From: Armatimonadota bacterium | Lineage (GTDB): Bacteria > Armatimonadota > Fimbriimonadia > Fimbriimonadales > GBS-DC | Assembly: GCA_013359125.1 (NCBI GenBank) | Contig: JABWCR010000015.1 | Location: 1-64,000, forward strand | Length of the DNA stretch: 64,000 nt | Direction: 5' to 3' | Part shown: positions 29,563 through 58,143 of the stretch, piece after piece | Layout of the letters: every line of letters starts with the position of its first letter | Position numbering within the stretch: the stretch's first letter is position 1 | Notes under the pieces: generated by a model | What the model was told of the DNA's origin: nothing | What the model saw: only the letters and a program-made list of their open reading frames with translations | The model's database searches: none | Made by a program: the position numbers and the translations under genes

Positions 29563-29587
29563 GTCGCCCTCCACGTTTGAGGCTCAA

Positions 29588-29595
29588 ATTATACC
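29588..29595 (-). promoter_or_regulatory. -10 box GGTATAAT of glmU
   Basis: A minus-strand box 25 nt upstream of ATG 29562, with GGAGGG between the two. This is a leadered example of the same -10 motif. Confidence 0.6.
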
Positions 29596-29623
29596 TACGG
29601 CTTCAAAAATGGCTGAAGCGCTC

Positions 29624-29640
29624 TATAATATCTCGGGAGG
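29624..29640 (+). promoter_or_regulatory. -10 TATAAT and Shine-Dalgarno of the galactose-oxidase-fold gene
   Basis: TATAAT at 29624-29629 and GGGAGG at 29635-29640, 5 nt before ATG 29646. This fixes the start far downstream of the longest open frame. Confidence 0.6.
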
Positions 29641-29645
29641 CAACT

Positions 29646-42234: not shown

Positions 42235-45200
42235 ATGCTCTATCGCTCAGCCGTGTTTGTTGCCCTGCTCGTTTTCGTCGTCGCTTCGTTCTCGCAACGC
42301 ACCTACCATCAGTTCAGCTACGAGCTGAAGGCCACCAACCAAAGCTTATGGGCGCCCGGCACCGGCCGTATCGACTACACCAAGTTTCTTGGCACCTCGT
42401 TTAGCAGTTCCGACAGCTACAACGGCTACTTCAACTTCTTTGGCGAGACGGGCGTCGCCGGCAACGCATCGATCACAGGACAGACCGGGCTTCGCTTCTC
42501 TGCTTTTGCCGACGGCGGATCGGTCGATATCGCTTACCCCGTCAAGATAGAAATCGGCATTCCCGAAAGAGACTTCCTAGTGCCGGGCGGTCCGGTCGTC
42601 ATCACCACAAGCTACGTTCGGAGCGGTACCGCGTCCATGGTTACGCGCTCTCCCGATGCGAACGTCATTGCCGAGGGCTTCTTCAAAGCTCAGCCCAGCG
42701 TAACCATGACTGGAAAACTGAGCGGCGAGACCCTCTTTAGCGGTCAAGCGCTCTCCAACTCGGTTCGAAACATCGACCTAAACGTTCAACTCTTTAATCT
42801 TCGCAATTACGTCTTCCCCGGTTCCAGCGACGTCAGCATCGACATCTTCCCGACCTATCCGAACTTGCTTCGCGCCGACCTCCACTGGCCGGTGATCAAC
42901 ATCACACAGTCGCTAACCGACTCCAACGGTCTAATTCGGGACCTGAGGGGCAAGGCTCGCGACCGTATTTTCACGCTGACGGGCAATATCACCGCTGCAG
43001 TGATCTACCTTCTCCAAACAGCGGTCGGTTCTCCGCCGTTCAACTTCCTGGATCAGTCGGTCAGTTTTCCGCCAAAATCCCCCGCGTACACCTTTGCAGC
43101 AGGCTACAGTTTGTTGCGCGCGGAGGCTCGCGGCGTGGTAGGTTTTCAGAAGGACGTGGAGTTTTTGCCCAGGCCCAGGATTCGATTGGAGCTGGCGAGC
43201 GGCACATTTTTGGCGGAGGGGCCCATAGGTCAAAATCTCACGTTCACGATGCCGACTTCCGGCGCTGCGGACATCCGAGCGATTATCTACTTCGACAACG
43301 ACTTTAAGACGACCATGTCTCTCACTCTGGGTGGGGGCCTCTACTTTATCCCCATGGAGTTCTACGCCGGCGGATCGATCGGTCCCTTTTCATTGGGCGG
43401 CTTCAACCTACAGCCGCTCGACCCCTATGCGTTAGAGTCGTCCATACCGTTCAAACTTTTTGACAGGCAGTTCATGCTGGCAGGCTTCAACACTCCCCAG
43501 ACGACGGCGATGCCCGTCCGTGCGAACACCAGCCCAGACCCGGCCGTATTCTATAGCGTCAACTTTCCAGGCGATACCTTTGCTCGATTCGGCGACAACA
43601 GCGCGACGATCCGGCTGGAAGGCCGTCCATTGGGCTACCTCGGCTCCAACTCGGTCATCTATGTCAACAACACCGCCATAGCCACAACGTTCAATTCAAC
43701 GAACAATTACGTAGAGTGCACGCTCACGAGACCGACCCACAATGCGATTCTGAACACGCTGAACCTCAGCGGCTTCGACGTGCAGGTCAAGAGGCCCGGT
43801 TTCCCTGATTCGAACATACTCAAGTTCGAAGTGGGTTATAAGCTTCCGATCATCGATCAACTGAAAAACGGCGGAATCGAGTTCACGACGTACGACATCG
43901 GCTCAACGAACGTCGATCTGCAGCTAGAGGTCAGTAGCCCTGGAAACACTTACTCAGATGGCTTATCAGTCGTCTATTGGAACGAGCAGCCAATACCGAC
44001 GACCTATCCCCAGCCCTTTACCGGCTCGGTTTTGCACGCAACGGTGCCTAAGGAGATTCTGAACATTGGCGGCCAAATATGGGTTACTGTGCGCACGCCT
44101 CTGCCGGGCGGCGGAGTATCGAACCCCAAGCAAGTATTTGTCCGCTATCCCAGCCCGCAATGGCACGAAAGCGCCAGCAACCGCCTCAATCCGACATCCG
44201 GGCGCAGCGTTGGGGACGACGGCCTTACGATTACGGTCCAAGGCAACGGATTCGTCAACGGCCATACGCCGGAAACGCGGACAACGGTGATGTTCAAAAA
44301 GCCCGGCGCCGGATCGTTCGTGGCGCTGGAAACCGTCTTTGAACATGCGGGCAAGCTCCATGCCGTAATTCCTGCCAGTCAATTGGACGTCATCGGCGAC
44401 GCGGAAGTCGTTATCCGTGGGCCAAACCTGCTTGGCGATGGGTTCATATTCACTTCTGGCCAGACCTTCCGAGTTCTCAAAGGCATACCGTTCCTCAACC
44501 GTTGCGATCCGTCGATCGTGCCTCGCGGCACGTCTGGCCCGCTGACTGTTAGAGTGTATGGAAAGGGATTCCGCAACGACACGACCCTCTTCTTCAACAA
44601 CTTCTCGCACGCCTACCAGTTTATTTCGCCTAACGAAATTCGGTTTACCGCCAACACCTCCCACATGACTAACGGCGCGGTGCTGCCCGTTGTCATCCAA
44701 GTCTTGCAACCGACAGGCGCGGTCGAATGGTCGAACGAAGAGTGGTTCACCGTGCGCAACCCTAAGCCAACTATATCAACCCTGACCCCGAACACTCGGC
44801 AAGCCTACAGTAGCGCATTCACCCTGATCGTAACGGGAAGCGGCTTCGAAAGCAGCGCCCGAGTCTATTGGAACGGCCAGCCGCGCAACACGACCTTTGT
44901 CAACAGTACAAGAGTCGACGCCAGCATCCCGGCAGCCGATCTCAACTACCCCGGAATGGCCAATGTTCAAGTTCAGAACTACCCGAGCGAGTATTCGAAC
45001 GGGTTGCCGTTTACCATCTCCGAAGCGACGACGATCTACGTCTCGCCGACGGGAAACGATGCCTTTTCCGGCAATACTTGGCAGAACGCAAAGCGCACCG
45101 TCCAAGCCGGGATTAACACAGCCGTTGCCGGGCAGCAAGTCTGGGTGCGGCACGGCACCTACAACGAGCGCATCACGCTCAAATCGGGCGTTCGAGTCTT

Positions 45201-48200
45201 CGGCGGCTTCGCGGGCAACGAGACGAGCCTGTGGCAGCGCAATCTCGTCTCCAACGTCTCGATTCTGGACGGACAAGCGGGCGGATCGGTCGTTACCTCG
45301 CCGTCCGGAGCAACGCCCGAAACGATGATCGACGGCTTTACGATTCGCAACGGATTGGCGGCTAACGGCTCGGGCATCAACATCACTATCGGATCGCCCG
45401 TCATCTCGAACAACGTCATCCGCAACAATGGCACGACCGGGGCGACGATCGGCGCCGCCATCTACGTCAACACCGGCAACCCCAAGGTGCTGAACAACAT
45501 CATCCATGCCAACACCAGCACGCACTCTGTGATCTATAACGTCAGTTCGGGCGCGCAGTACATCAATAACACCATACACGGCAACACGAGCACGAATGCC
45601 CCGACGGGAGCCGCGATCTTCGCATCCGACAACACCAATATCTTGCTTGCCAACAACATCTTCACCAACCACTCGGGCGGGCCGAACATCGATCGCAAAA
45701 ATGTTGGTACGGCCGCGTTCGTCTTGCGCAACAATCTGGTGCGAGGCGCCTCGCCCAACTATCGAAACCAAGCCGCCGGAGCCTCTGACTTTGCCGACGA
45801 CCCGCTGTACGTCAACGTATCTTTGGGCGACTTTAGAATCCAGCCTGGATCGCCCTGTTTCGATCGCGGATTCAGCCCAGACGCGCTGATCATTCCTGTA
45901 GACGCCGAGGGCAACGATCGCTTCTTTGGGCTTGCGGTCGATGTCGGCGCGGACGAGATCAACGCCTTCGCCGCGACTCAGCTCAGCGCTGGCAATAATT
46001 CCGTGTACATTGGCGGTACGGCGGCGCTGTCCGCGTTTCTATACGGTCCGCTCCAGACTCCAATCGCCAACCAGCCTGTTCACTTCTTTGTGAACGGCCA
46101 ATCCATCGATTCGGGTACGACCAACGTTATCGGCCAGGCGACAGTTCAATACACCGCCCCCATGAACATGAACGTCGGAAACTACCCGCTCGACATGGAA
46201 TTTCCGGGATTTAGAGGCTATGCGGGCACGACGCTGGCTCGAACCCTCACCGTTCTGCGCACTCAACCGACCGTTACGCCTCAATCGGTGGCCACCGAAT
46301 CGGGGCTTCCTGTCCAACTAAGAGCGAGGCTGACGCTGAACACCAACAATGCGCCGATGCCTGGCCATTCGATCTCGTTTAAGATTGCCGATACGATCGT
46401 CGGCAGCGGCGTTACCGATGCGGATGGCTGGGCGACGCTCAACTATACAGTTCCCCCGGGCGTGGCTGCAGCCACCTACTCGCTAAAGGCCGAATTCGCG
46501 GGCACTGCGAACTTCCATGCGGCAACGAGCCAAACAACCTTCATCGTCAACAACACGCCGCCTATCGCTCGCCTGGCCGGAAAATCTTTTCGGTCGCCGG
46601 GGATCAACGACCGGGCAGAAGTTGCTGGTTTCGGGACGGTCGTACCCACGACCGAAATGACCATCGAGTTCTGGCAATTGGCCGACTCCGTGCGCCAGCA
46701 AGCGCCAATCACCTTGAACGGCGGATCGAACACCAACCGCATCGTCATCCACTCGCCTTGGAGCGATGGCGTCGTCTATTGGGACTTCGGCAACATCTTC
46801 ACCGGCGGGCGGCTCGCTTATACCCCGCCCCAAAGCGTCGTCGGCACGTGGCAGCACTTTGCCATGGTCGTCAGCCAAAACGGCAACTTCATGCGCATCT
46901 ACCGCAACGGGGTTCTTGAGGCCCAGAAGGTCGGTATGACGCCTTTTGCAAACCTCAATATGCCGCTGCTCATCGGCGGTTCGGGATTCTTGGGTGAATT
47001 GGACGACGTTCGCGTTTGGAACTATGCGCGCGAACAGTTCGAAATCCAGCGAGGCTACCGACAGCCCTTGAAGGGCACAGAACCTGGCTTGATCGGCTAC
47101 TGGCGGATGGACGATTCTCTGAACGGCAATACGCTGACCGACTCCAGCGGCAACGGACGCACGGCGATGTTCGTCGGTTCGCCCAGGTTCCAACTCTCCG
47201 GTGCGACTATCAATCGCGCGGTCGCCCATGCCAACGCGCCGCGCTCGGTCAAGTTTGCCGGCTTCGATGTGAACGACGACCCCCTGTCCTTTGGCATCGC
47301 ATCGCCGCCAGGCCTTGGATCAGTCTACGGCGGACCGACCTCGTTTACGTTTACTCCGCCGGACGGCGTATCCGGCACTTCGCCGTTCCAGTTCAAGGCC
47401 AACGATGGCATGAACGAAAGCCCCGCGGCAGGCGCCATCTTCGACTTTGACGGCGGCGTGCCTTCCGCAACGTTGGCCGGATTGAGCATCGACCTCGCCG
47501 CAGGAGCCTACGCGAACGTCGGCTCTTCCAATGCGCTAAAAATGACGAACGCCTTAACCATAGAGGCTTGGATCAACCCACAGCCTCTATTGAATATCAA
47601 CGAGTACGGCATTATCGTCAATCGAGAAGGCGAGTACGAGATTGCTCGGTTCTGGGATGGAACGATCCGATATGCTCTGGCCAACTCCAACCCGGGATGG
47701 GCATGGATCTCGACCGGTTACTTCGCACCCGCTGGAGAGTGGACGCACATCGCGCTGACGTACGATGTCGCTGCCGGCCAGATACGGTTCTATGCAAACG
47801 GCCAACTCGTGCACACGCGCCTGGGTGTTGGCAACATCGGCGACATTGCCCCAGCCCAGAACGACTTCCGCATCGGCTGGCGACAGACTTTGGACGCGCT
47901 AGGCCGCTATCGAGGTCAAATCGACGAAGTCAGAATCTGGAATCGCGCTCGAACCGCGCAGGAGATCGCCCGCGACTGGCGAGCCGTACTGCGCGGCAAC
48001 GAACCAGGTCTTAAGGGGCTTTGGCGGATGGAAGATCGAGGCGATGGGACGCTGATCGATGGTTCGGGAAACAATCCCGAAGCCTTGCTCCTTGGCACAT
48101 TCGTATGGCGAGTGTCGGGCGCTAACATCGACACGGTCAATTGCTGGGTCGGCCAGTCCGCCAACGTCTTGCTCAAAGGATTCACCGCCATCAGCCCGCC

Positions 48201-48531
48201 GCTTACATTCGATATTATGCGATTGCCAAGCGGCGGCGCATTGGGCGGCACGCCGCCCAACTTGACCTTTACGCCGTCGGTGCGAGGCACGACCGAACTT
48301 TGGTATCGCACTCGCAACGCGCTCAACTTCATCAGCGACATGGCTAAAGTCAGGCTTGTGTCGAGATTCCAGGGCGATGCTAACGGAGACGGCTGCGTGG
48401 ACGACATCGATCTGGCCATCGTCTTAGGCGAGTTTGGAGGAACGACTCCAAGCGGCGACCTCAATCAGGACGGCATTGTGGACGATACCGACCTGGCCAT
48501 CGTGCTCGGCCAATTCGGCATGGGATGCTAA
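42235..48531 (+). CDS. Giant secreted multidomain protein (IPT/TIG, beta-helix, Ig-like, two LamG, dockerin)
   Basis: A 2098-residue exported protein. A signal peptide (1-21) is followed by a beta-rich region without assigned family (to about 430) and several IPT/TIG-like Ig repeats (about 435-930; PTISTLTPNTRQ, then LIVTGSGFESSARVYWNG). A right-handed parallel beta-helix lies at about 935-1240 (TIYVSPTGND start, with SPVISNNVIRNN and PKVLNNIIHAN rungs). Two Ig-like domains (about 1245-1445) and two LamG/concanavalin-type domains (about 1456-1640 and 1742-1950; WQHFAMVV, GELDDVRVWN and GQIDEVRIWN) follow. Dockerin-like repeats end it (GDANGDGCVDDIDLAIVL, then FGMGC). GGGGAGG precedes the ATG. 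The likely role is surface adhesion or glycan binding. Confidence 0.92.
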   Translation: MLYRSAVFVALLVFVVASFSQRTYHQFSYELKATNQSLWAPGTGRIDYTKFLGTSFSSSDSYNGYFNFFGETGVAGNASITGQTGLRFSAFADGGSVDIAYPVKIEIGIPERDFLVPGGPVVITTSYVRSGTASMVTRSPDANVIAEGFFKAQPSVTMTGKLSGETLFSGQALSNSVRNIDLNVQLFNLRNYVFPGSSDVSIDIFPTYPNLLRADLHWPVINITQSLTDSNGLIRDLRGKARDRIFTLTGNITAAVIYLLQTAVGSPPFNFLDQSVSFPPKSPAYTFAAGYSLLRAEARGVVGFQKDVEFLPRPRIRLELASGTFLAEGPIGQNLTFTMPTSGAADIRAIIYFDNDFKTTMSLTLGGGLYFIPMEFYAGGSIGPFSLGGFNLQPLDPYALESSIPFKLFDRQFMLAGFNTPQTTAMPVRANTSPDPAVFYSVNFPGDTFARFGDNSATIRLEGRPLGYLGSNSVIYVNNTAIATTFNSTNNYVECTLTRPTHNAILNTLNLSGFDVQVKRPGFPDSNILKFEVGYKLPIIDQLKNGGIEFTTYDIGSTNVDLQLEVSSPGNTYSDGLSVVYWNEQPIPTTYPQPFTGSVLHATVPKEILNIGGQIWVTVRTPLPGGGVSNPKQVFVRYPSPQWHESASNRLNPTSGRSVGDDGLTITVQGNGFVNGHTPETRTTVMFKKPGAGSFVALETVFEHAGKLHAVIPASQLDVIGDAEVVIRGPNLLGDGFIFTSGQTFRVLKGIPFLNRCDPSIVPRGTSGPLTVRVYGKGFRNDTTLFFNNFSHAYQFISPNEIRFTANTSHMTNGAVLPVVIQVLQPTGAVEWSNEEWFTVRNPKPTISTLTPNTRQAYSSAFTLIVTGSGFESSARVYWNGQPRNTTFVNSTRVDASIPAADLNYPGMANVQVQNYPSEYSNGLPFTISEATTIYVSPTGNDAFSGNTWQNAKRTVQAGINTAVAGQQVWVRHGTYNERITLKSGVRVFGGFAGNETSLWQRNLVSNVSILDGQAGGSVVTSPSGATPETMIDGFTIRNGLAANGSGINITIGSPVISNNVIRNNGTTGATIGAAIYVNTGNPKVLNNIIHANTSTHSVIYNVSSGAQYINNTIHGNTSTNAPTGAAIFASDNTNILLANNIFTNHSGGPNIDRKNVGTAAFVLRNNLVRGASPNYRNQAAGASDFADDPLYVNVSLGDFRIQPGSPCFDRGFSPDALIIPVDAEGNDRFFGLAVDVGADEINAFAATQLSAGNNSVYIGGTAALSAFLYGPLQTPIANQPVHFFVNGQSIDSGTTNVIGQATVQYTAPMNMNVGNYPLDMEFPGFRGYAGTTLARTLTVLRTQPTVTPQSVATESGLPVQLRARLTLNTNNAPMPGHSISFKIADTIVGSGVTDADGWATLNYTVPPGVAAATYSLKAEFAGTANFHAATSQTTFIVNNTPPIARLAGKSFRSPGINDRAEVAGFGTVVPTTEMTIEFWQLADSVRQQAPITLNGGSNTNRIVIHSPWSDGVVYWDFGNIFTGGRLAYTPPQSVVGTWQHFAMVVSQNGNFMRIYRNGVLEAQKVGMTPFANLNMPLLIGGSGFLGELDDVRVWNYAREQFEIQRGYRQPLKGTEPGLIGYWRMDDSLNGNTLTDSSGNGRTAMFVGSPRFQLSGATINRAVAHANAPRSVKFAGFDVNDDPLSFGIASPPGLGSVYGGPTSFTFTPPDGVSGTSPFQFKANDGMNESPAAGAIFDFDGGVPSATLAGLSIDLAAGAYANVGSSNALKMTNALTIEAWINPQPLLNINEYGIIVNREGEYEIARFWDGTIRYALANSNPGWAWISTGYFAPAGEWTHIALTYDVAAGQIRFYANGQLVHTRLGVGNIGDIAPAQNDFRIGWRQTLDALGRYRGQIDEVRIWNRARTAQEIARDWRAVLRGNEPGLKGLWRMEDRGDGTLIDGSGNNPEALLLGTFVWRVSGANIDTVNCWVGQSANVLLKGFTAISPPLTFDIMRLPSGGALGGTPPNLTFTPSVRGTTELWYRTRNALNFISDMAKVRLVSRFQGDANGDGCVDDIDLAIVLGEFGGTTPSGDLNQDGIVDDTDLAIVLGQFGMGC

Positions 48532-48592: not shown

Positions 48593-49438
48593 ATGCCCTG
48601 GCCTGTGCCCGCGTCCGAAAAGCGGACGCCCGAACAACTGAGAGAGCATTACGAGGTCGAGAAGGAGCTCGCGGATCGATTGCGCGCAGCGCCCAAGCAG
48701 GACCGTGCTCGGCTTTACAGCGAACTGTACGACGAACTGTTTCGCCGACTGCCCCACCATCCGCAGCTCTCTCGAAAGGCCGACAGCGACGAACAGGGCA
48801 AGGTCGTAGCGTTTCAAATGCAGCTGCTCCGACACTTTATTACGCCTGAAACCGTTTTCCTAGAGATCGGCGCGGGCGATTGCGCCTTGACGTTCGAGGT
48901 CGCCAAGACCGCCAAGAAAGCGATCGCCGTCGAGGTTTCCGCCGAGGTAACGCAGAACAAACAGACGCCGGAGAACTTTGAACTCGCGCTTTCGGACGGC
49001 AGCAGCATTCCCGTGCCCAACGGCACGGCCACGCTCGCCTATAGCAATCAGCTGATCGAGCATCTCCATGTAGAAGACGCAAAAGATCATCTGAAGCAGG
49101 TGTGCGATGCGCTGGCGCCAGGCGGCCAGTATGTCTGTATCACGCCCAACGGCATCTCGGGCCCATACGACGTCTCCATGTACTTTGACGAGACGCCGAC
49201 AGGCTTCCACATGAAGGAGTACTCCATGACCGAGTTAGGCCGAATGATGCGGCAAGCCGGTTTTAGCAAGGTGCAGCCCGTCGTCGGCGCTAAAGGTCGG
49301 CTGATCCTCGCGCCGCTCTGGGTCTACTCGATTCTCGAAGGCTTCTTGTTGGCGCTGCCGCTCAAACTTCGAAAAAAGGTCTCTCGATGGGAACCAATCC
49401 GCAAGCGAATCAGCGTTAAGTTAGTAGCGACTAAGTGA
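48593..49438 (+). CDS. Class I SAM-dependent methyltransferase
   Basis: A 281-residue protein. Motif I is VFLEIGAGDCALTFEVA near residue 88; later motifs are IPVPNGTATLAYSNQLIEHL near 140 and LAPGGQYVCITPN near 172, all typical of the Methyltransf_11/25 group. A hydrophobic C-terminal stretch (LWVYSILEGFLLALPL, about 243-258) suggests membrane contact. The substrate is unknown. GGAGGAA precedes the ATG. The next gene starts 13 nt downstream, so it is probably co-transcribed with the first of the five beta-propeller genes, and modification of a secreted or surface glycan is a reasonable guess. Confidence 0.88.
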   Translation: MPWPVPASEKRTPEQLREHYEVEKELADRLRAAPKQDRARLYSELYDELFRRLPHHPQLSRKADSDEQGKVVAFQMQLLRHFITPETVFLEIGAGDCALTFEVAKTAKKAIAVEVSAEVTQNKQTPENFELALSDGSSIPVPNGTATLAYSNQLIEHLHVEDAKDHLKQVCDALAPGGQYVCITPNGISGPYDVSMYFDETPTGFHMKEYSMTELGRMMRQAGFSKVQPVVGAKGRLILAPLWVYSILEGFLLALPLKLRKKVSRWEPIRKRISVKLVATK

Positions 49439-49451
49439 AAGGAGAGACCCT

Positions 49452-51131
49452 ATGAAGAAAGCCCTGCTCGCCGCAACGCTGCTCTTTGCCGTCCCACTAT
49501 CCCCCGCACAAACCGTGGTCGATCCTAATTTAACGGTCGATGTGGTCATTAGAAACCTCGCGCTCCCTATCGCGATGGAGTTTCTTCGAAACGATTCGGT
49601 CAGCGAGTTCTTTGTAACCGAGCGATTTTCAGGCCGCGTAAAACTCGTTCGCAACGGCGCGGTCGCGGGCATTGTGCTGGATTTGGCGGTGAACACCGAG
49701 ACCGAGCGGGGGCTTCTAGGCATGACCAAGCACCCAGACTTTGAAACGAACGGCTTCATCTACCTCTTTTATTCTCCTTCGACGCACGATGGCGGCCCAT
49801 GGATGGGCAACCGGGTCTCGCGCTTTCGATGGAACGGCACGGCGCTGGTAGACGAACTGATCATTTTGGACGTGTTGCCCGATCCCAATCAAGCCAACGG
49901 TCCGATCCATCATGGCGGCATCTTGCTTTTTGGACCAGACCGCAAACTTTATGGGGTTACGGGCGATCTGAACCGCGGCAAGTTCTCCAATCCTCGAATA
50001 GAACAAAACTCCGACCCGAACAACCCGTCCGGCGTCGGAGGCATTTTTCGCTATAACGACGACGGCTCCATCCCGGGCGACAACCCGTTCGTCGATCATT
50101 CCTCGCCGCACATACAAAGACTGTTTGCGTACGGAATTCGCAATAGCTTCGGTCTTGCGTTCGATCCGCTCACAGGGCGCCTCTGGCAGACGGAAAACAG
50201 CCCCGTCAACTACGACGAAATTAATCTGATCGACAAGGGCTTTAACAGCGGGTGGATTAAAATCATGGGGCCGGACGCGCGCAACGCGGCCTACAGCGAA
50301 AACGGACAGCGAAACTGGGACGCGCACGAACTTGTCCACCTTCCGGGAAGCTATTACGGCGACCCGAAGTTCTCTTGGACCAACCCCGTGCCGGCCGTAA
50401 CTTCCATCGCCTTTGCGCGCAGCGCCCGATACGATCCGGGAGTAATCGACGAAGCCATCGTGGGAGACTGGAACAACAGCGCGCTTTATCTGTTCCCTAT
50501 GAACGCCCAGCGCAACGGCTTCAATCTGACCGGCCCATTGGCCGATCTGGTGGCCGACGGGGCTGCCGAACGCGACTTGTCGCTTTGGGGCACGGGATGG
50601 CGCACTTCGACCGACATGGACATCGGCGCAGACGGTTATATCTACTGCGTCAATTATATCAACGGGCTGGTCGTTCGCATTCGACCGGTCAATTCGCCGA
50701 CCGTCATCAACGGAGAGGCATCCTTGGCAGACTTTGGCGCCCATCCGCTCAACGTGCCCTTGCGCCTCGACATTTATCAGAACGATGCCTTGGTCGAAAC
50801 CATCGATACGCAGCTAGACGCCTTCGGAAAGTTCTCGGTGCGGGCTCAAACGACCGGCGCTATCAAGGTCGTTGCCAAACCGTCTCACTGGCTATCGGTA
50901 GCGCGCGATTCGCTCGCGCTTTCTAGCGGCGGACACATCTACTTGAAGCTTAACTTTGCCTATAACGGCGATGTCAACGGCGACAATACAATCGACGACA
51001 CCGACCTGAGCTTAATTCTTACCGCTTTCGGAGTCCAGGACGACGACATCGATCAAAATGGCGACGGTCTCGTTGACGACGTCGACCTGAGCATCGTTTT
51101 GACCAACTTCGGCCAGGCTGGCCAGGAGTAA
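49452..51131 (+). CDS. PQQ-type sugar dehydrogenase-like secreted beta-propeller with dockerin tail, paralogue 1
   Basis: A 559-residue exported protein. The signal peptide (MKKALLAATLLFAVPLSPAQ) precedes a six-bladed propeller of the glucose/sorbosone dehydrogenase family (about 25-415): ERGLLGMTKHPDF, the active-site His in HHGGILLFGPDRKLYGVTGD near 155, GIRNSFGLAFDPLTGRLW near 227 and NYDEINLIDKGFNSGW. A beta-sandwich linker (about 416-498) and two EF-hand repeats follow (GDVNGDNTIDDTDLSLIL, then DQNGDGLVDDVDLSIVL). The residues expected to bind PQQ cannot all be confirmed by eye, so catalytic activity is not assured. GGAGAG precedes the ATG. First of five tandem copies. Confidence 0.88.
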   Translation: MKKALLAATLLFAVPLSPAQTVVDPNLTVDVVIRNLALPIAMEFLRNDSVSEFFVTERFSGRVKLVRNGAVAGIVLDLAVNTETERGLLGMTKHPDFETNGFIYLFYSPSTHDGGPWMGNRVSRFRWNGTALVDELIILDVLPDPNQANGPIHHGGILLFGPDRKLYGVTGDLNRGKFSNPRIEQNSDPNNPSGVGGIFRYNDDGSIPGDNPFVDHSSPHIQRLFAYGIRNSFGLAFDPLTGRLWQTENSPVNYDEINLIDKGFNSGWIKIMGPDARNAAYSENGQRNWDAHELVHLPGSYYGDPKFSWTNPVPAVTSIAFARSARYDPGVIDEAIVGDWNNSALYLFPMNAQRNGFNLTGPLADLVADGAAERDLSLWGTGWRTSTDMDIGADGYIYCVNYINGLVVRIRPVNSPTVINGEASLADFGAHPLNVPLRLDIYQNDALVETIDTQLDAFGKFSVRAQTTGAIKVVAKPSHWLSVARDSLALSSGGHIYLKLNFAYNGDVNGDNTIDDTDLSLILTAFGVQDDDIDQNGDGLVDDVDLSIVLTNFGQAGQE

Positions 51132-51140
51132 GCCCCGTGT

Positions 51141-51146
51141 TATACT
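51141..51146 (+). promoter_or_regulatory. -10 TATACT upstream of paralogue 2
   Basis: TATACT 53 nt before the start of the second beta-propeller gene, which also has a good ribosome site (GGAGG). It suggests that copies 2 and 3 can be transcribed separately from copy 1. Confidence 0.4.
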
Positions 51147-51199
51147 ATAGCGTTGCTCGCGGAATAGATAAGCGGGCGTCTATCGCCGGAGGTTAAAGG

Positions 51200-52897
51200 A
51201 TGAGTTATCTGAAACGAGCCTTTGTTGCCGCGTTGTGCGCAGTTACTTTTGCCTGGTCGCAGACCACTACCGACCCCAACTTAACGGTCGATATCGTGAT
51301 AACCGGTCTCAGCCAGCCGACCTGCCTTCTGTTTCACGTCCGAGGCAATCCCAACGAATTTCTGGTAGGAGAAAAGGCATCCGGCCAAGTCAAGCTCGTT
51401 CGAAACGGCAGCGTCGAAGCCATCGCGCTCGATCTGCCCGTAGCCAACAACAGCGAGCGGGGCCTGCTCGGCATTGCCATGGACCCAGCCTTCGATACCA
51501 ATCGATACGTATACATTTACTACTCGCGCTCTACGTCGGACGGTGGAACCTGGCTCGACAATCGAGTGTCTAGATTCACTTGGAATCCGAGCGCCTCAAC
51601 GCTGACCGGCGAGACCTTGATTATCAGTTTCCCTAGCGATACGACCCAAAACAACGGTCCCAATCACGACGGCGGTATCATCCAGTTCGGCCCGGATGGC
51701 AAACTGTACGGCATCACCGGCGATCTCAATCGAGGATTTTTGACCAACACCCGCATCGAACAGAACACGGCCTCTGCCACCAGCGGACGGTATGCCAACG
51801 TGGGCGGGATCTTTCGAATCAATACCAACTCGACGATACCTGCCGACAACCCGTTTTTTGCTCAAACAGCGTCGCAGTTGCGGCGCCTCTGGGCCTACGG
51901 TATCCGCAACAGCTTCGGCATGATGTTCGATTCGCTGACTGGCCGGCTCTGGTTTACCGAGAACGGGCCCAATCTGTTCGACGAGATCAATATCGCGCAC
52001 AAAGGCATGAACAGCGGTTGGCTCAAGATCATGGGCCCGGACAGCCGCAACGCGACCTATACCGAAAACGGAAACGTTGCCTACAACGCCGACCAACTGA
52101 CCATCCTGCCCAACTCCCAATACTACGATCCTCTCTATTCCTGGCGATCGCCGATCGGGGTAACGTCCATCAACTTTCTGCGCAGCGCGCGATACGAGAC
52201 CAACATTCGTGACGCTGCCCTGGCAGGGGACGCCAACCTGGGCAACCTTTACAAGTTCGACGTCAACGCGAACCGAGACGATCTGATTCTGACGGGCGGC
52301 GTGGCCGATCGAGTGGCCGATAGCTCGACCGAGCGCAACCTGAACCGATGGGGCACGGGCTGGGGCGTCATCACCGACATGGACATCGGCGCAGACGGAT
52401 ACATGTACATGACTTCGCTCTCGAATGGAGCGGTCTATCGGCTTCGACCGATCAATCCGCCAACCGTGTTAAACGGAGAATGCAGGTGGCTCGGCTACCT
52501 GGGAGAACGACTCGGCATTCCCGTTACACTAGACCTCTTTAACGGCACAACGCTGGTAGAGACGATCGTTGTCGAGGCGGATGCGTTCGGAAAGTTCTCT
52601 ACTCGTCCAGCCGCGCCCGGCAACTACACAATCGTCGCTAAGTCTCCACAAGCCCTTTCAAAGCGGTTGACGGGCGTAACGCTGCCCAGCGGCGGCTATG
52701 CCTATGTGCTGATCGATTTCGATATCCTGGGAGATGCCAACAACGACAATCTGATCGACGACAGCGACCTTGCCATGCTTCTTGAAGCGTTTGGCACCAA
52801 TCTGCCAACGACAGACTTCAACGGCGATGGAATCGTAGACGACGTTGACCTGAGCGTATTGCTCATGAATTTCGGTCTATCGGGCGAATCGCCCTAA
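51200..52897 (+). CDS. PQQ-type dehydrogenase-like secreted beta-propeller with dockerin tail, paralogue 2
   Basis: A 565-residue exported paralogue of the flanking genes. It has the signal peptide MSYLKRAFVAALCAVTFAWS and opens DPNLTVDIVITGLSQP, very like copy 1. Propeller signatures are ERGLLGIAMDPAFD, NHDGGIIQFGPDGKLYGITGD with the expected His, and GIRNSFGMMFDSLTGRLWFTE. The linker domain (about 420-505) ends SGGYAYVLIDFD and the EF-hand repeats read GDANNDNLIDDSDLAMLL and DFNGDGIVDDVDLSVLL. It is followed after 12 nt by copy 3. Confidence 0.88.
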   Translation: MSYLKRAFVAALCAVTFAWSQTTTDPNLTVDIVITGLSQPTCLLFHVRGNPNEFLVGEKASGQVKLVRNGSVEAIALDLPVANNSERGLLGIAMDPAFDTNRYVYIYYSRSTSDGGTWLDNRVSRFTWNPSASTLTGETLIISFPSDTTQNNGPNHDGGIIQFGPDGKLYGITGDLNRGFLTNTRIEQNTASATSGRYANVGGIFRINTNSTIPADNPFFAQTASQLRRLWAYGIRNSFGMMFDSLTGRLWFTENGPNLFDEINIAHKGMNSGWLKIMGPDSRNATYTENGNVAYNADQLTILPNSQYYDPLYSWRSPIGVTSINFLRSARYETNIRDAALAGDANLGNLYKFDVNANRDDLILTGGVADRVADSSTERNLNRWGTGWGVITDMDIGADGYMYMTSLSNGAVYRLRPINPPTVLNGECRWLGYLGERLGIPVTLDLFNGTTLVETIVVEADAFGKFSTRPAAPGNYTIVAKSPQALSKRLTGVTLPSGGYAYVLIDFDILGDANNDNLIDDSDLAMLLEAFGTNLPTTDFNGDGIVDDVDLSVLLMNFGLSGESP

Positions 52898-52909
52898 CAG
52901 AGGGAAACT

Positions 52910-54589
52910 ATGACTAAACTTCTATCCTTAACACTCGGCGCGCTGATCGCCTTAAGCGCCCATGCGCAAACTTTTACCGAATCGGGCTTTGTGATCGAAT
53001 CCCACTTCGTGGGAGGCGTTCAAAGACCGATCTGTTTCGAGTTCCTGCACGAAGACCGCATCTCCGACGTTCTAGTGGGAGAGTGGCTGACCGGAAAGGT
53101 CAAATGGGTGCAGAACGGCACGGTCGTGGCGACTGTTCTGGACGTAAACGTCTCTAACGTCGCCGAGCGCGGCTTTCTCGGCATGGTCAAATCGCCCGAT
53201 TTCGACGAGACCGGCCACCTCTACGTCTACTACTCTCATGCGGACGTAGACGGAGGCACATGGACCGACAACCGGGTGGAGCGGTACACCTGGAACGGCG
53301 CTCAACTGGTGAATCCAACCCTCATTCTATCGTTCCCCCTCGATCCGAGCCAGATTCTGGCCGACCGGCACAACTCCGGCCCGATGGTCTTTGGACCGGA
53401 CGGCAAACTGTACGGTATGTGCGGCGATATGCATCGAGGCCGATTCAGTAACCCGCGCATCGAGCAAAATACCAGCACGACCGCCGTGGCCGGCACGGGC
53501 GGCATCTTCCGTCTAAACCCGGACGGAAGCATCCCAGCCGATAATCCATGGGTCAGCCATCCCCATCCATCGATCCAGCGCTTGTATGCCTATGGATTGC
53601 GCAATACCTTTGGCATCCAGTTCGATCCTTTGACCGGACATCTCTGGATGACCGACAACGGTCCCTCTGTCTACGACGAGGTCAATCTAGTGCGCAAGGG
53701 CTACAACGGCGGATGGCTCAAGATCATGGGGCCCGACAGCCGCGACGCCTCCTATGGAGAGAACAATCTGCGCGTTTTCAACGCCTCGGATCTGACCTAT
53801 CTGCCAGGTGCCTACTACGAAGACCCAAAGTTCAGCTTCCTGATCCCTATCGGCATCACAACCATCTGTTTCGTGCGCTCGGCCCGGTTCGAGCCGAATC
53901 TGCGCGATCATACGCTAATTGGCCAAAGCAACGGCAATGGAAGGCAATACAAACTGTTGATGAACGAAGCGAGGGACGGCTTCGTACTGTCCGGCGTCTT
54001 GGAAGACACCGTCGCCGACACCAATGCAGAGGGCGACACGATAGCGTTTCTAAACTCAGGCAGCGCGCCGACCGATTGCAAGATCGGACCAGACGGCAAC
54101 ATCTACACGACGGCGCTTTGGATCGAACGCATCTGGAGAATACGGCCGCAAAATCCGCCCACCGTGCTCAACGGTCGGGCCAAACTTTCCAACTGGACCC
54201 CCTACCCTCTGGGCGTGCCGCTGACCCTAAAGTTGATGAACGGAAATACGACCGTCGAAACGATCGACACGACGCTCGACGCCTATGGCAAGTTCTCGGT
54301 TCGCGTACAGACTCCAGGTTCTTACTCCGTAGTCGCCAAAGCAGGCACGTGGCTATCCAAGAGACAAAACAGCGTCTCGCTCTCCAACGGGGGCTGGGCC
54401 TATCTGCGCTTCAACATGGATGTAAACGGAGACGTTAACGGCGACAACATCATTGACGATAGCGATTTGGCCCAACTTCTTACCGACTTCGGTACAGAAG
54501 AATCCGCCTCAGACCTCAACGGCGACGGGATCGTGGACGACACAGACTTGGCGTTGTTGCTGGAGAACTTTGGACTTTCGGGCGAATGA
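52910..54589 (+). CDS. PQQ-type dehydrogenase-like secreted beta-propeller with dockerin tail, paralogue 3 (divergent)
   Basis: A 559-residue exported paralogue and the most divergent of the five. After the signal peptide (MTKLLSLTLGALIALSAHAQ) the opening differs (FTESGFVIESHFVGGVQRP). The active-site block reads HNSGPMVFGPDGKLYGMCGD: the His is kept but the following Gly pair has become Ser-Gly. It retains GLRNTFGIQFDPLTGHLWMT. The linker domain (LSNWTPYPLGVPLTLKLMNG) and EF-hands (GDVNGDNIIDDSDLAQLL, then DLNGDGIVDDTDLALLL) are standard. GAGGGA lies before the ATG, so it is probably co-transcribed with copy 2. Confidence 0.87.
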   Translation: MTKLLSLTLGALIALSAHAQTFTESGFVIESHFVGGVQRPICFEFLHEDRISDVLVGEWLTGKVKWVQNGTVVATVLDVNVSNVAERGFLGMVKSPDFDETGHLYVYYSHADVDGGTWTDNRVERYTWNGAQLVNPTLILSFPLDPSQILADRHNSGPMVFGPDGKLYGMCGDMHRGRFSNPRIEQNTSTTAVAGTGGIFRLNPDGSIPADNPWVSHPHPSIQRLYAYGLRNTFGIQFDPLTGHLWMTDNGPSVYDEVNLVRKGYNGGWLKIMGPDSRDASYGENNLRVFNASDLTYLPGAYYEDPKFSFLIPIGITTICFVRSARFEPNLRDHTLIGQSNGNGRQYKLLMNEARDGFVLSGVLEDTVADTNAEGDTIAFLNSGSAPTDCKIGPDGNIYTTALWIERIWRIRPQNPPTVLNGRAKLSNWTPYPLGVPLTLKLMNGNTTVETIDTTLDAYGKFSVRVQTPGSYSVVAKAGTWLSKRQNSVSLSNGGWAYLRFNMDVNGDVNGDNIIDDSDLAQLLTDFGTEESASDLNGDGIVDDTDLALLLENFGLSGE

Positions 54590-54618
54590 GCGGGGATTTC
54601 GTGGAACGAAACTTGCTG

Positions 54619-54624
54619 TATAAT
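54619..54624 (+). promoter_or_regulatory. -10 TATAAT upstream of paralogue 4
   Basis: TATAAT 39 nt before ATG 54664, with AAGGAGAG as ribosome site. It indicates an independent promoter for the fourth beta-propeller gene. Confidence 0.5.
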
Positions 54625-54663
54625 CTGTTCAACGAGGGAACGATTGATCTTTAAGGAGAGCCT

Positions 54664-56340
54664 ATGAAAACGACCTGCGCGGCAGTTCTATCGGCTTTGA
54701 TCTGCCTGACGGCAGTCGCCCAAACACTAGACGACGCCACGATGACGTGGGAGAACGTCGTTACGGGCCTCAGTTTGCCGACCTCCTTCGAGTTCATCGA
54801 CGAAAGCAACCCTAACGAGTTTTGGGTTACCGAAAAGAACACCGGCAGGGTTCGACACGTTCGCAACGGCGTTATAGGAAACACCGTGCTCGACCTTCCC
54901 GTTGCAACCGCCGCAGACCGCGGTCTGCTGAGCTTGGTCAAATCGCCCGACTTTAACCAGACCGGACACGTCTTCGTCTTCTACTCCTTCGCGATCGCCG
55001 ATGGCGGCGCCTGGATCGAAAACCGCATCGAACGATATACGTGGAACGGGACAGCAATGGTCGACCCGGTTATCATCTGGTCGACTCCGTTCGACCCCAG
55101 CCAGCCGAATGGCGATTGGCATCAGGGCGGCGTGCTTTTGTTCGGCCCCGACAGAAAACTGTACTTCCCCACCGGCGACCTGCATCGCGGTCGGCTTGAC
55201 AACGGTCGAATCGAGCAAAACACGCACGGTTCGGCAGTTGCGGGCGTAGGCGGCATCTTGCGCCTTAACCCGGACGGCACGACGCCGGACGACAACCCGT
55301 TCGCCGACCACGCCAACGAAGCGATCCGACGCATGTGGGTCTATGGGCTTAGAAACTGCTTCGGCATGGCGTTTGATTCGCTTACCGGCTTGCTCTGGTT
55401 TACTGAAAACGGCCCAGACAAGTACGACGAGATCAATATCGCGCGCAAGGGGCTTAACAGCGGATGGCTCAAAATCGTCGGCCCCGACAGCCGTAACGCG
55501 ATATACTTTGAAAATAACAACACCGCCTACAACGCTGCCGACCTGACCATGCTGCCCGGAGCGATCTATCGCGATCCAGAGTTCAGCTGGGTTGAGCCGA
55601 TCGGCCCGATCACTATGCTCTTTCTAAGAAGCCAGCGATTCGACGCCAACTGGCGGGACCATGCGATCTTTGACGACAGCAACCACAGCGAGCTCTATCG
55701 GCTCCTGATGAACAATGAGCGCGACGGCTTTGCGCTAACTGGCGGCTTGGCCGACAAGGTGGCCGACCATGGGGGAGAAAGGCTCCTGCTCAAAGTCGGT
55801 ACGGGTTTCTGGACGTGCACCGATAGCGAGATTGGGGCGGATGGATACGCCTACTTGCTCTCGTTAGCGCACGGTCGCGTTATCCGCCTGCGCCCTGTCA
55901 ATCCGCCAACGGTTATCAATGGCCGCATCGAATTAACTAACTACGTCGGCTCGATGATCGGCGTACCCTTGACGATCGAACTGCGCCAAGGGCAGACGGT
56001 CGTCGAAACGCTCAATACAACCCTCGATGTCTGGGGCAAGTTTTCTGTGCGAGTGGCAGCGCCGGGCAACTACACGGCCTATGTGAAGCCATCCAAATGG
56101 CTCGCCAACAAGATTCTCGGCGTTAGCCTCACATCCGGCGGCTATGCTTACCTCAAGTTTGCCAGCGGCTCCAACGGCGACGTCAACGGAGACAACATCG
56201 TGGACGATAGCGACCTGGGGGCTGTGTTGGAGGCCTTTGGCACAGACAACGCCGCGGCAGACCTAAACGGCGACGGTATCGTGGACGACACGGACTTGAG
56301 CATCGTGCTCGAAGCCTTCGGACTGCAAGGCGAGGACTGA
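54664..56340 (+). CDS. PQQ-type dehydrogenase-like secreted beta-propeller with dockerin tail, paralogue 4
   Basis: A 558-residue exported paralogue. The signal peptide is MKTTCAAVLSALICLTAVAQ. The mature start TWENVVTGLSLPTSFEF and WVTEKNTGRVRHVRNG are closest to copy 5, so these two form a subgroup. The active-site block HQGGVLLFGPDRKLYFPTGD and GLRNCFGMAFDSLTGLLWFT are intact. Linker domain about 420-500, then GDVNGDNIVDDSDLGAVL and DLNGDGIVDDTDLSIVL. It has its own -10 box and Shine-Dalgarno sequence. Confidence 0.88.
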   Translation: MKTTCAAVLSALICLTAVAQTLDDATMTWENVVTGLSLPTSFEFIDESNPNEFWVTEKNTGRVRHVRNGVIGNTVLDLPVATAADRGLLSLVKSPDFNQTGHVFVFYSFAIADGGAWIENRIERYTWNGTAMVDPVIIWSTPFDPSQPNGDWHQGGVLLFGPDRKLYFPTGDLHRGRLDNGRIEQNTHGSAVAGVGGILRLNPDGTTPDDNPFADHANEAIRRMWVYGLRNCFGMAFDSLTGLLWFTENGPDKYDEINIARKGLNSGWLKIVGPDSRNAIYFENNNTAYNAADLTMLPGAIYRDPEFSWVEPIGPITMLFLRSQRFDANWRDHAIFDDSNHSELYRLLMNNERDGFALTGGLADKVADHGGERLLLKVGTGFWTCTDSEIGADGYAYLLSLAHGRVIRLRPVNPPTVINGRIELTNYVGSMIGVPLTIELRQGQTVVETLNTTLDVWGKFSVRVAAPGNYTAYVKPSKWLANKILGVSLTSGGYAYLKFASGSNGDVNGDNIVDDSDLGAVLEAFGTDNAAADLNGDGIVDDTDLSIVLEAFGLQGED

Positions 56341-56342
56341 TT

Positions 56343-56398
56343 TCCCGCAACGGCGGGATTGAGTAAAGTCGGACGGCGGGCTCTGCCCCTGGTCCGAT
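56343..56398 (+). other. Two-hairpin intergenic leader before paralogue 5
   Basis: A TCCCGC-AACG-GCGGGA hairpin at 56343-56358 is followed by a nested inverted repeat at about 56371-56398, TCGGAC and GTCCGA outside with GGGC-TCT-GCCC inside. No T-run follows, so termination is uncertain. It could be a processing or attenuation site between copies 4 and 5. Confidence 0.35.
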
Positions 56399-56427
56399 GA
56401 TGTTGAAAAAAGGAGGTCGTGCTGATT

Positions 56428-58143
56428 ATGGGTGCATCAACAGCCCGTGCTTGGATTGCTCTACGCCGAATGTCGGCGCTCGCTTTGCTAACTGGCGCAT
56501 TGCTCGCAAATTCTCAAACCCTTGTCGATACATCGATGACTTGGGAAAACGTTGTAACCGGCCTATCCAACCCCATCAACTTTGAGTTCGTCAGCGACAA
56601 GAACCCGACCGAAATGTGGGTAACGGAAAAGAACACCGGGCGCGTAAAGCACATCTTCAACGGAACCGTCCGGATTGTGCTAGACCTGCAAGTCTCAAAC
56701 AGCACCGACCGCGGGCTGCTCGGTATCGTCAAGCATCCCGACTTTGAGCAGAATCGTTGGGTCTATCTCTACTATTCGACATCGCCCTCAGGCGAAGGCG
56801 CCGATTGGCTCTCTAATCGAGTCGTGCGATTTGAGTGGACCGGAGACGAGTTCATCAACCCCCTGCTCATCTGGGAGACCTTTACCGATCCCAACCAGCC
56901 CAACGGCAACTGGCACCAGGGCGGCGTCATGGCGTTCGGCCCCGATCGCAAACTCTATATCGTAACAGGCGACCTCCACCGAGGACGCATCTGGGCCGGT
57001 CGAATCGAGCAGAATACTCACGCAACCCTTCCATCGGGCGTTGGCGGCATCCTTAGGCTTAACGACGACGGCACAACCCCAAGCGACAACCCGTTTGTCA
57101 GCCACTCAGCGGAGTCTATTCGCCGCATGTGGACATACGGTCTGCGCAACTCCTTTGGCATCGAATTTGATCCGCGCACTGGCATCCTCTGGTACACGGA
57201 GAACGGCCCCGACTTTTGGGACGAGATCAATTATGTGGAGCGCGGCGGCATGAACAGCGGCTGGCTCCTGATCATGGGGCCCGATAGCCGCGATGCCCGA
57301 TACCCCGAGAACAACCAGACCGCATTTAACGCCTCGAACCTGGTCAACTTGCCAAACAGTTACTACCAAGACCCTGTGTTCAGCTGGTATAACACGATCG
57401 GCCCCATTGCATGTAAATTCATCACGAGCGCCCGCTTCTCGGGCGATTGGTCGGAAAACCTCTTCATGACCGATACCAACACAGCTGGCCTTTATCTCTT
57501 CAAGATGAGGCCAGACCGCAAGGGTTTTCTGCTTGACGGCCCTCTTAGCGACCAAGTTGCCGACAACCTGGCAGAACGCGAGATGAATCGCATAGGATCG
57601 ACGTTCTGGACGATCACCGACGTCAAGTTTGGAGCGGACGGCTTCATGTACCTGCTAGGACATGCGCACGGTCGAATTCTCCGAATCCGACCCGTCAGTC
57701 CGCCGCCCGTTCTGAATGGCAAGGCAGTGCTCGAGAACTATGCCGCTTTGCCTCTCAACATGCCGATCACGATCAGACTTCGAAACGAAACGACCAACGA
57801 ACTCCACGATCCGATCAACAGCGTCTTGGACTGGAAGGGCAACTTCAGCGTTCGGGCTCCATCAGGCGGTACGTTCTCGGGTTCGATCAAGGTGGGAACT
57901 TATCTCAGTCAGAGCATCGAAGAGTTCACTTTGGCGGCCAACGGGTACATCTATCTCGATCCTGCCTTTGGCGCCAACGGCGATGTGAACGGCGACGACA
58001 TCGTGGACGACGCGGACCTGCTCATAGTGCTTGAATCGTTCGGCACAGATGGTTTGGGCGATGTCAACGGAGACGGCATCGTTGACGATCTCGATCTCGC
58101 CATTGTCCTTGAGTCCTTTGGTCTGGCCGGACACCAACCCTAA
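56428..58143 (+). CDS. PQQ-type dehydrogenase-like secreted beta-propeller with dockerin tail, paralogue 5
   Basis: A 571-residue exported paralogue. ATG 56428 is chosen over the in-frame GTG 56419 because the strong AAAGGAGGT at 56409-56417 would be almost touching the GTG but is 10-11 nt from the ATG. The signal region is MSALALLTGALLANS, possibly after an Arg-rich start. TWENVVTGLSNPINFEF groups it with copy 4. It carries HQGGVMAFGPDRKLYIVTGD, GLRNSFGIEFDPRTGILWYT, the linker domain and two EF-hands (GDVNGDDIVDDADLLIVL, then DVNGDGIVDDLDLAIVL). Its stop overlaps the convergent phosphoesterase stop by 4 nt. Confidence 0.88.
   Translation: MGASTARAWIALRRMSALALLTGALLANSQTLVDTSMTWENVVTGLSNPINFEFVSDKNPTEMWVTEKNTGRVKHIFNGTVRIVLDLQVSNSTDRGLLGIVKHPDFEQNRWVYLYYSTSPSGEGADWLSNRVVRFEWTGDEFINPLLIWETFTDPNQPNGNWHQGGVMAFGPDRKLYIVTGDLHRGRIWAGRIEQNTHATLPSGVGGILRLNDDGTTPSDNPFVSHSAESIRRMWTYGLRNSFGIEFDPRTGILWYTENGPDFWDEINYVERGGMNSGWLLIMGPDSRDARYPENNQTAFNASNLVNLPNSYYQDPVFSWYNTIGPIACKFITSARFSGDWSENLFMTDTNTAGLYLFKMRPDRKGFLLDGPLSDQVADNLAEREMNRIGSTFWTITDVKFGADGFMYLLGHAHGRILRIRPVSPPPVLNGKAVLENYAALPLNMPITIRLRNETTNELHDPINSVLDWKGNFSVRAPSGGTFSGSIKVGTYLSQSIEEFTLAANGYIYLDPAFGANGDVNGDDIVDDADLLIVLESFGTDGLGDVNGDGIVDDLDLAIVLESFGLAGHQP

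Follow-up and report, generated by a model that had tools for sequence, protein, structure and literature searches.

Architecture and fold of the five propeller genes

We analysed a window of 64,000 nucleotides from an Armatimonadota bacterium of the order Fimbriimonadales (contig JABWCR010000015.1, positions 1 to 64,000), in which five open reading frames (ORFs) on the forward strand, within positions 49452-58143, encode paralogous propeller proteins of the glucose/sorbosone dehydrogenase family GSDH. The host genome (referred to here as G000) comprises 2.82 Mb in 47 contigs and is rated 100% complete, and the host belongs to a hot-spring-associated bacterial group. An earlier note, made from the sequence alone, had described five same-strand paralogues at this locus, and the ORF listing of the window agrees: all five match Pfam PF07995 (GSDH) at 130-174 bits, so far above the curated cut-off of 25 that their homology to GSDH, judged by profile score, exceeds chance. 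The five genes and their predicted domains are as follows.

49452..51131, + strand: copy 1; signal peptide, GSDH propeller about 49521-50687, X-like beta domain 50688-50966, dockerin 50967-51128
51200..52897, + strand: copy 2; signal peptide, GSDH propeller, X-like domain 52451-52729, dockerin 52730-52894
52910..54589, + strand: copy 3; signal peptide, GSDH propeller, X-like domain 54149-54427, dockerin 54428-54586
54664..56340, + strand: copy 4; signal peptide, GSDH propeller, X-like domain 55897-56175, dockerin 56176-56337
56419..58143, + strand: copy 5; signal peptide, GSDH propeller, X-like domain 57694-57978, dockerin 57979-58140

From copy 1 to copy 5 the intergenic gaps measure 68, 12, 74 and 78 nt, and copies 2-5 are 48-52% identical to copy 1. 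By inspection, each protein begins with a hydrophobic stretch followed by an invariant Gln-Thr, as in a signal peptide, and the signal peptide previously attributed to every copy is thus probably present. Copy 5 is listed from a GTG at 56419 (574 aa); the alternative ATG at 56428 (571 aa) appears the likelier start, being better spaced behind AGGAGG.

Structure prediction, which the earlier note had proposed, was run on copy 4, modelled in AlphaFold2 with 39 relatives; the remaining copies were aligned only. The model (predicted local distance difference test score, pLDDT, 94.3; predicted template modelling score, pTM, 0.91) has the fold of a six-bladed quinoprotein propeller. When the Protein Data Bank (PDB) was searched with Foldseek, and template modelling (TM) scores were taken by target length, the best matches were sugar dehydrogenases dependent on pyrroloquinoline quinone (PQQ), namely 3a9g (TM 0.85), 7cdy (0.83) and 2ism (0.83), then 2g8s. 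Acinetobacter soluble glucose dehydrogenase (sGDH) scored 0.64-0.66 (1qbi 0.66), and fungal enzymes of CAZy family AA12 (0.59-0.63) and the animal protein HHIP (0.56-0.62) ranked lower.

The six-bladed propeller is common to the copies and the known bacterial enzymes, both sGDH (Acinetobacter GdhB, 1qbi/1c9u/1cq1) and the aldose sugar dehydrogenases (YliI/Asd 2g8s, Pyrobaculum 3a9g, Thermus 2ism, Streptomyces 3das). The copies differ from these enzymes, to which they are 20-25% identical, in carrying long inserts with DxVADxxxER and GPDSR motifs and a fused tail resembling an X-module-dockerin (XDoc) unit. The NCBIfam model TIGR03606 (glucose/sorbosone family PQQ-dependent dehydrogenase) gives the copies 97-120 bits, below its cut-off of 434.55. 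The AA12 proteins CcPDH and TrAA12 are like the copies in fold (TM about 0.6 by target length), in the core His/Arg/Asx and in lacking Lys377. They are only 13-15% identical to the copies, too little for a reliable alignment by residue, keep one bacterial arginine (Arg621) and use histidines of their own (the PQQ ligands particular to AA12 are Arg273, His539 and His560 in CcPDH); the array copies, unlike AA12, carry no cytochrome or carbohydrate-binding module. The literature searched holds no report of a GSDH protein with a dockerin.

Catalytic core and predicted PQQ pocket

To map the active site we aligned the copies with sGDH and Asd sequences and with canonical paralogues. In sGDH, His144, Arg228 and Asn229 surround the quinone carbonyls of PQQ (PMC6881810). 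Their equivalents are invariant in all five copies and 34 relatives (40/40 family members) and are kept in nearly all of 93 wider relatives, and the equivalents of Asp163, Asp252 and Glu253 are kept in all five copies. The calcium loop Gly247-Pro248, retained in nearly all family members, reads GP in copies 2-5 and SP in copy 1; as the calcium ligands here are main-chain carbonyls (PMC6881789), the serine of copy 1 should be tolerable. The histidine, arginine, asparagine, Asp163, calcium loop and DE pair are thus held in common with the bacterial sGDH/Asd enzymes. Copy 3 had been singled out as having diverged in its active-site block (HNSG for HxGG); we do not see it so, and rejected a dead active site, since its RHNSG motif keeps the catalytic histidine and the reference sGDH itself reads HQSG.

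At the carboxylate end of the pocket the copies depart from the known enzymes. A GRLR or RIR motif precedes GPDG in every solved bacterial PQQ sugar dehydrogenase that we aligned (2ism, 3a9g, 2g8s, 7cdy, 3das), and in a gap-free alignment to 2ism the same position in the five copies reads V/T/A-x-T, with both arginines gone. We take these arginines to be Arg406 and Arg408 of sGDH; the loss relative to 2ism, 3a9g, 2g8s, 7cdy and 3das is independent of that numbering. Residues 408-410 of copy 4 (the final R-x-R-P) were considered as Arg406/Arg408 and rejected, since the anchors align gap-free to the GRLR before GPDG. The position of Lys377 holds no Lys or Arg in any of the five copies; this lysine is not universal, being absent in AA12 and apparently also in 7cdy. 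Hence, of the PQQ and calcium residues on which the earlier note had made an enzymatic array depend, His144, Arg228, Asn229, Asp163, Asp252/Glu253 and the calcium loop stand, and Arg406, Arg408 and Lys377 are lost from every copy.

The loss extends well beyond the array. Among the 93 wider relatives we found a subfamily, marked by a VADN motif, with the same loss of PQQ-carboxylate anchors in Acidobacteriota, Planctomycetota, Verrucomicrobiota, Actinomycetota and Pseudomonadota; His, Arg and Asn are retained throughout this subfamily. Its VADN...ESES members, annotated as of "PQQ-dependent sugar dehydrogenase" type (Acidobacteriota, Planctomycetota, Verrucomicrobiota, Schlegelella, Methylococcaceae), are like the copies in the missing arginine pair, the VADN motif and the catalytic core. 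In a rooted tree they lie outside the Fimbriimonadales set as its outgroup, and only the lineage of the window has the dockerin tail and the tandem array. A large GSDH subfamily spread over several phyla is thus without the arginine pair that holds the PQQ carboxylates in solved enzymes, yet falls in the same Pfam family. Because the subfamily at large has the same loss, it is old and shared and not a sign of decay within the array. Fungal AA12 enzymes are also without Lys377 and hold PQQ by other groups, with one arginine kept (PMC6881789), and from sequence we regard PQQ binding by the array copies as plausible.

Where PQQ would come from is a separate matter. A search of the genome for PQQ biosynthesis genes had been proposed, and NCBIfam models detected neither PqqC nor PqqE in G000, the sole match being a radical-SAM protein whose 48 bits fall short of the cut-off of 381; the positive controls, two Methylococcaceae genomes, scored 353 and 527-532 bits. 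PQQ would therefore need to be scavenged. E. coli does not make PQQ. Its YliI is a PQQ enzyme (PMC13088180), and by analogy it is possible that the array's host takes up PQQ from outside.

The missing anchors and the missing biosynthesis genes both lend weight to the idea that the propellers are catalytically silent, with the fold serving as a surface module for ligand binding or adhesion, as in animal HHIP, and with the variation beside the catalytic histidine (described below) amounting to diversification of a binding site. That non-enzymatic HHIP is itself a structural match (TM 0.56-0.62) points the same way. However, enzymes outscore HHIP in fold similarity, and His, Arg and Asn are invariant in 40/40 family members over order-wide divergence, with the calcium loop kept in nearly all, which would not be expected of a propeller that only binds. 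We regard silent propellers as unlikely, if deserving of some weight.

The same pair of losses could alternatively mean that the proteins are redox enzymes that hold a cofactor other than PQQ, or a relative of PQQ, in the same pocket. The quinone-carbonyl core is kept and the carboxylate grip lost across a subfamily in five phyla, and such a reshaped end would suit another molecule; no PqqC or PqqE in the host fits this as well. To our knowledge no non-PQQ cofactor is known for the GSDH fold. Several hosts of the same subfamily make PQQ (Methylococcaceae), and the AA12 enzymes are a case in which other residues hold PQQ (PMC6881789). A different cofactor therefore seems to us distinctly improbable.

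Divergence beside the catalytic histidine and history of the array

The five copies are under purifying constraint and diverge beside the catalytic histidine. We scored 94 positions that at least 90% of relatives have in common; each copy deviates at 3-6 of them (88-91 intact), as compared with 0-11 in the relatives and 21 in one outlier. The residue before the histidine is Asn in 23/34 relatives; in copies 1-5 it is I, N, R, W and W, within the motifs IHHGG (copy 1), NHDGG (copy 2), RHNSG (copy 3) and WHQGG (copies 4 and 5). The NHDGG of copy 2 is also found in single-copy relatives, and among the genomes examined all family members with a single long-type copy keep the Asn. Six genomes (G002, G003, G005, G018, G020, G021) have one copy with NHDGG (or NHNGG) and a second that is changed; in a seventh, G031, both are changed. 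This pattern was noticed after the fact, in sequences that are not independent. From these motifs, copy 2 is best described as the array's ancestral-type member.

Tandem arrays often hold spare copies, and some of the five could be left over from duplication, either redundant or decaying and without a role of their own. Copy 3 has the most departures (6/94, including R373G). All five reading frames are intact, however, the departures lie inside the range of the relatives, and identities of 48-52% to copy 1 imply that the copies have been retained for a long time; we consider redundancy or decay very unlikely.

G000 holds seven GSDH genes: the five of the array, a sixth, likewise of the long type, on contig C24 (locus L159), in which Arg precedes the histidine as it does in copy 3, and a short one on contig C40. 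Its relatives mostly have one or two long-type genes, at times as tandem pairs. We built two trees, one rooted on the wider VADN subfamily and one unrooted without that distant group. In the rooted tree the Fimbriimonadales set is a single clade (100/100). Copies 4 and 5 are sisters in both trees (100/100 and 100/99), as the earlier note had supposed, and copy 3 pairs with the C24 copy (100/98 in the rooted tree; the same pair in the unrooted one). Copy 2 falls outside the other dockerin-tailed members in the rooted tree (98/92, 96/88), and the two trees place copies 1 and 2 differently. The other subgroup claimed earlier, copies 1 and 2, appears in neither tree, and an approximately unbiased (AU) test does not reject it (p 0.39).

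A single-lineage origin of the five array copies alone is rejected (AU p 0.0003), and a clade of the five plus the C24 copy survives (p 0.18), from which it appears that one member has moved away from or into the array. At about 50% identity between copies, the array does not look like a recent amplification; the AU tests do not settle between a recent and an old expansion. The phylogeny that had been proposed for dating the duplications thus gives the 4+5 and 3+C24 pairs in both trees. Dating by synteny with the single copies of relatives was dropped, as none of ten window neighbours checked adjoins an orthologue of the array genes; matches were confined to two unrelated loci encoding subunits of branched-chain dehydrogenase type.

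The C-terminal tail, the surrounding genes and the proposed function

The shared beta domain and two EF-hand repeats described earlier are present in every copy. The beta domain spans ~93 residues (~85 in the earlier note) and is followed by 53-55 residues with two EF-hand-type loops, and all ten calcium loops are intact (D, N, D, D spacing). When the last ~147 residues were modelled separately (pLDDT 95.9), the ten best PDB matches were all XDoc units from type II complexes of cellulosomes (TM by query 0.67-0.73, 18-24% identity), and the same entries are matched weakly by sequence. The model thus indicates that the linker is X-module-like, that the EF hands are a dockerin and that the two fold as one unit. 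This is also how they occur in cellulosomal scaffoldins with a type II XDoc (A. cellulolyticus ScaA, C. thermocellum CipA/CipB); the difference is that the carrier here is an oxidase-like propeller and not a scaffoldin, and that no cohesin was found in the genome or, above cut-off, in 20 relatives. Against the Pfam Dockerin_1 cut-off of 22.9 bits, copies 4 and 5 score 23.3 and 23.0, copies 2 and 3 score 19.5 and 20.4, and copy 1 is not listed. The best NCBIfam name for the tail is dockerin_GC (NF041540), which gives those propeller copies that are listed 17-25 bits, below its cut-off of 29. Unlike that model, the array tails are without cysteines and a terminal GC; other G000 tails, including that of a 2098-residue neighbour, end in GC. 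Tails sampled across the genome (loci L189-L208) fall into two types: some have paired cysteines and end in GC/SC, and others are cysteine-free as in the array.

The tail is no peculiarity of the array. In G000 the XDoc profile has 133 matches and the dockerin profile 146, and dockerin matches number 29-118 in twelve relatives of the same family, 69 in the sister family f2 and 0-9 in the order's other families. An array-specific anchoring system therefore gives way to a family-wide export tag. Cohesin PF00963 has no match in G000 even at E 10 and none above cut-off in 20 relatives, with a positive Methanosarcina control, and we accordingly rejected a cellulosome. Non-cellulosomal dockerins occur elsewhere (PMC9012536; PMC10066038), and the tail most likely tethers exported proteins to a partner at the surface or in the matrix. 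In genomes of family f5 (loci L130, L141, L147) the same propeller subfamily, also in tandem pairs, carries an unrelated, unnamed C-terminal domain (ending RVDQ..WTVRVQ or similar); by sequence, the export or anchor domain has apparently been swapped between that family and the window's. In G003, further ORFs next to the single orthologue bear the dockerin tail of the array, and Pfam finds no additional domain in them (L131:6943-11229).

The array's surroundings and its candidate promoters are as follows.

48593..49438, + strand: class I methyltransferase gene, ending 13 nt upstream of copy 1
51119..51146, + strand: promoter-like site before copy 2; TGGCCA, 16 nt, TATACT (-10, ending 51146), with TG ahead of the -10
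54619..54624, + strand: possible -10 before copy 4, a perfect TATAAT; not among scan results

The methyltransferase gene is possibly co-transcribed with copy 1, and the last 4 nt of copy 5 are shared with a phosphoesterase-like ORF on the opposite strand. The separate promoters proposed for copies 2 and 4 come down to one promoter-like site and one bare TATAAT, for which no matching -35 passed the promoter scan; the region yields three promoter-like sites against 4.4 +/- 1.9 in shuffled sequence, so that the copy 2 site is not above chance. The 2098-residue neighbour, also exported, lies upstream of the array (42235-48531, +); it combines a beta-helix and two LamG domains with choice-of-anchor Z repeats, and its dockerin tail ends in GC. 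Further upstream (29520-32057, +), the dockerin tail of the array recurs on a protein that is galactose-oxidase-like (GO-like_E_set; radical copper oxidase GlxA-like, below the family cut-off). This second exported oxidase-like protein fits a theme of extracellular carbohydrate oxidation and is no proof of it.

Taking these observations together, we lean slightly towards the array encoding five exported, calcium-dependent GSDH dehydrogenases of the VADN/ER type on an XDoc-like tail, working with scavenged PQQ in a rebuilt pocket, with copy 2 of ancestral type and the other four altered in their substrate pockets. The copies would be exported and held at the cell surface or in the extracellular matrix by the tail, and would bind calcium and external PQQ in the rebuilt pocket. 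The histidine would take a proton from a sugar or aldehyde as hydride passes to C5 of PQQ, and the electrons would then go to an external acceptor. As copies 1, 3, 4 and 5 would have altered substrate pockets, the array would widen the range of substrates oxidised outside the cell. The diversified extracellular sugar or aldose oxidation system envisaged earlier is thus retained as to putatively secreted, diversified and constrained GSDH-type propellers, and is weakened by the loss of PQQ-carboxylate anchors in all five.

Several points weigh against such dehydrogenases. Arg406 and Arg408 are missing from the five copies and the whole subfamily though present in all solved bacterial enzymes aligned, and from sequence no replacement cation could be placed; a genome rated complete has neither PqqC nor PqqE, with positive controls detected; the electron acceptor was not traced; and the literature searched gives no subfamily member with measured activity.

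The enzyme superfamily is already known; the altered cofactor site is common to the subfamily, and the XDoc-like tail is common to the family. A broader proposal, which we hold to be speculative and on balance unlikely, is that the whole Fimbriimonadales family f1 uses a dockerin/XDoc system independent of cohesin, with tens to about 146 tails per genome, to display the enzymes it exports, and that an amplified GSDH subfamily mounted on this system, its cofactor site having lost the grip on the PQQ carboxylates, accommodates another cofactor or binds PQQ in a novel manner. Dozens of dockerins in a bacterial family where no cohesin is recognisable make for a concrete search for a new dockerin receptor. 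The array itself offers naturally occurring variation about a single catalytic histidine, with one member of ancestral type and four changed. If the enzymes work, PQQ-type sugar dehydrogenases would extend to a widespread subfamily that is annotated as PQQ-dependent yet is without the known carboxylate anchors, and identifying the ligand of that subfamily would correct many genome annotations.

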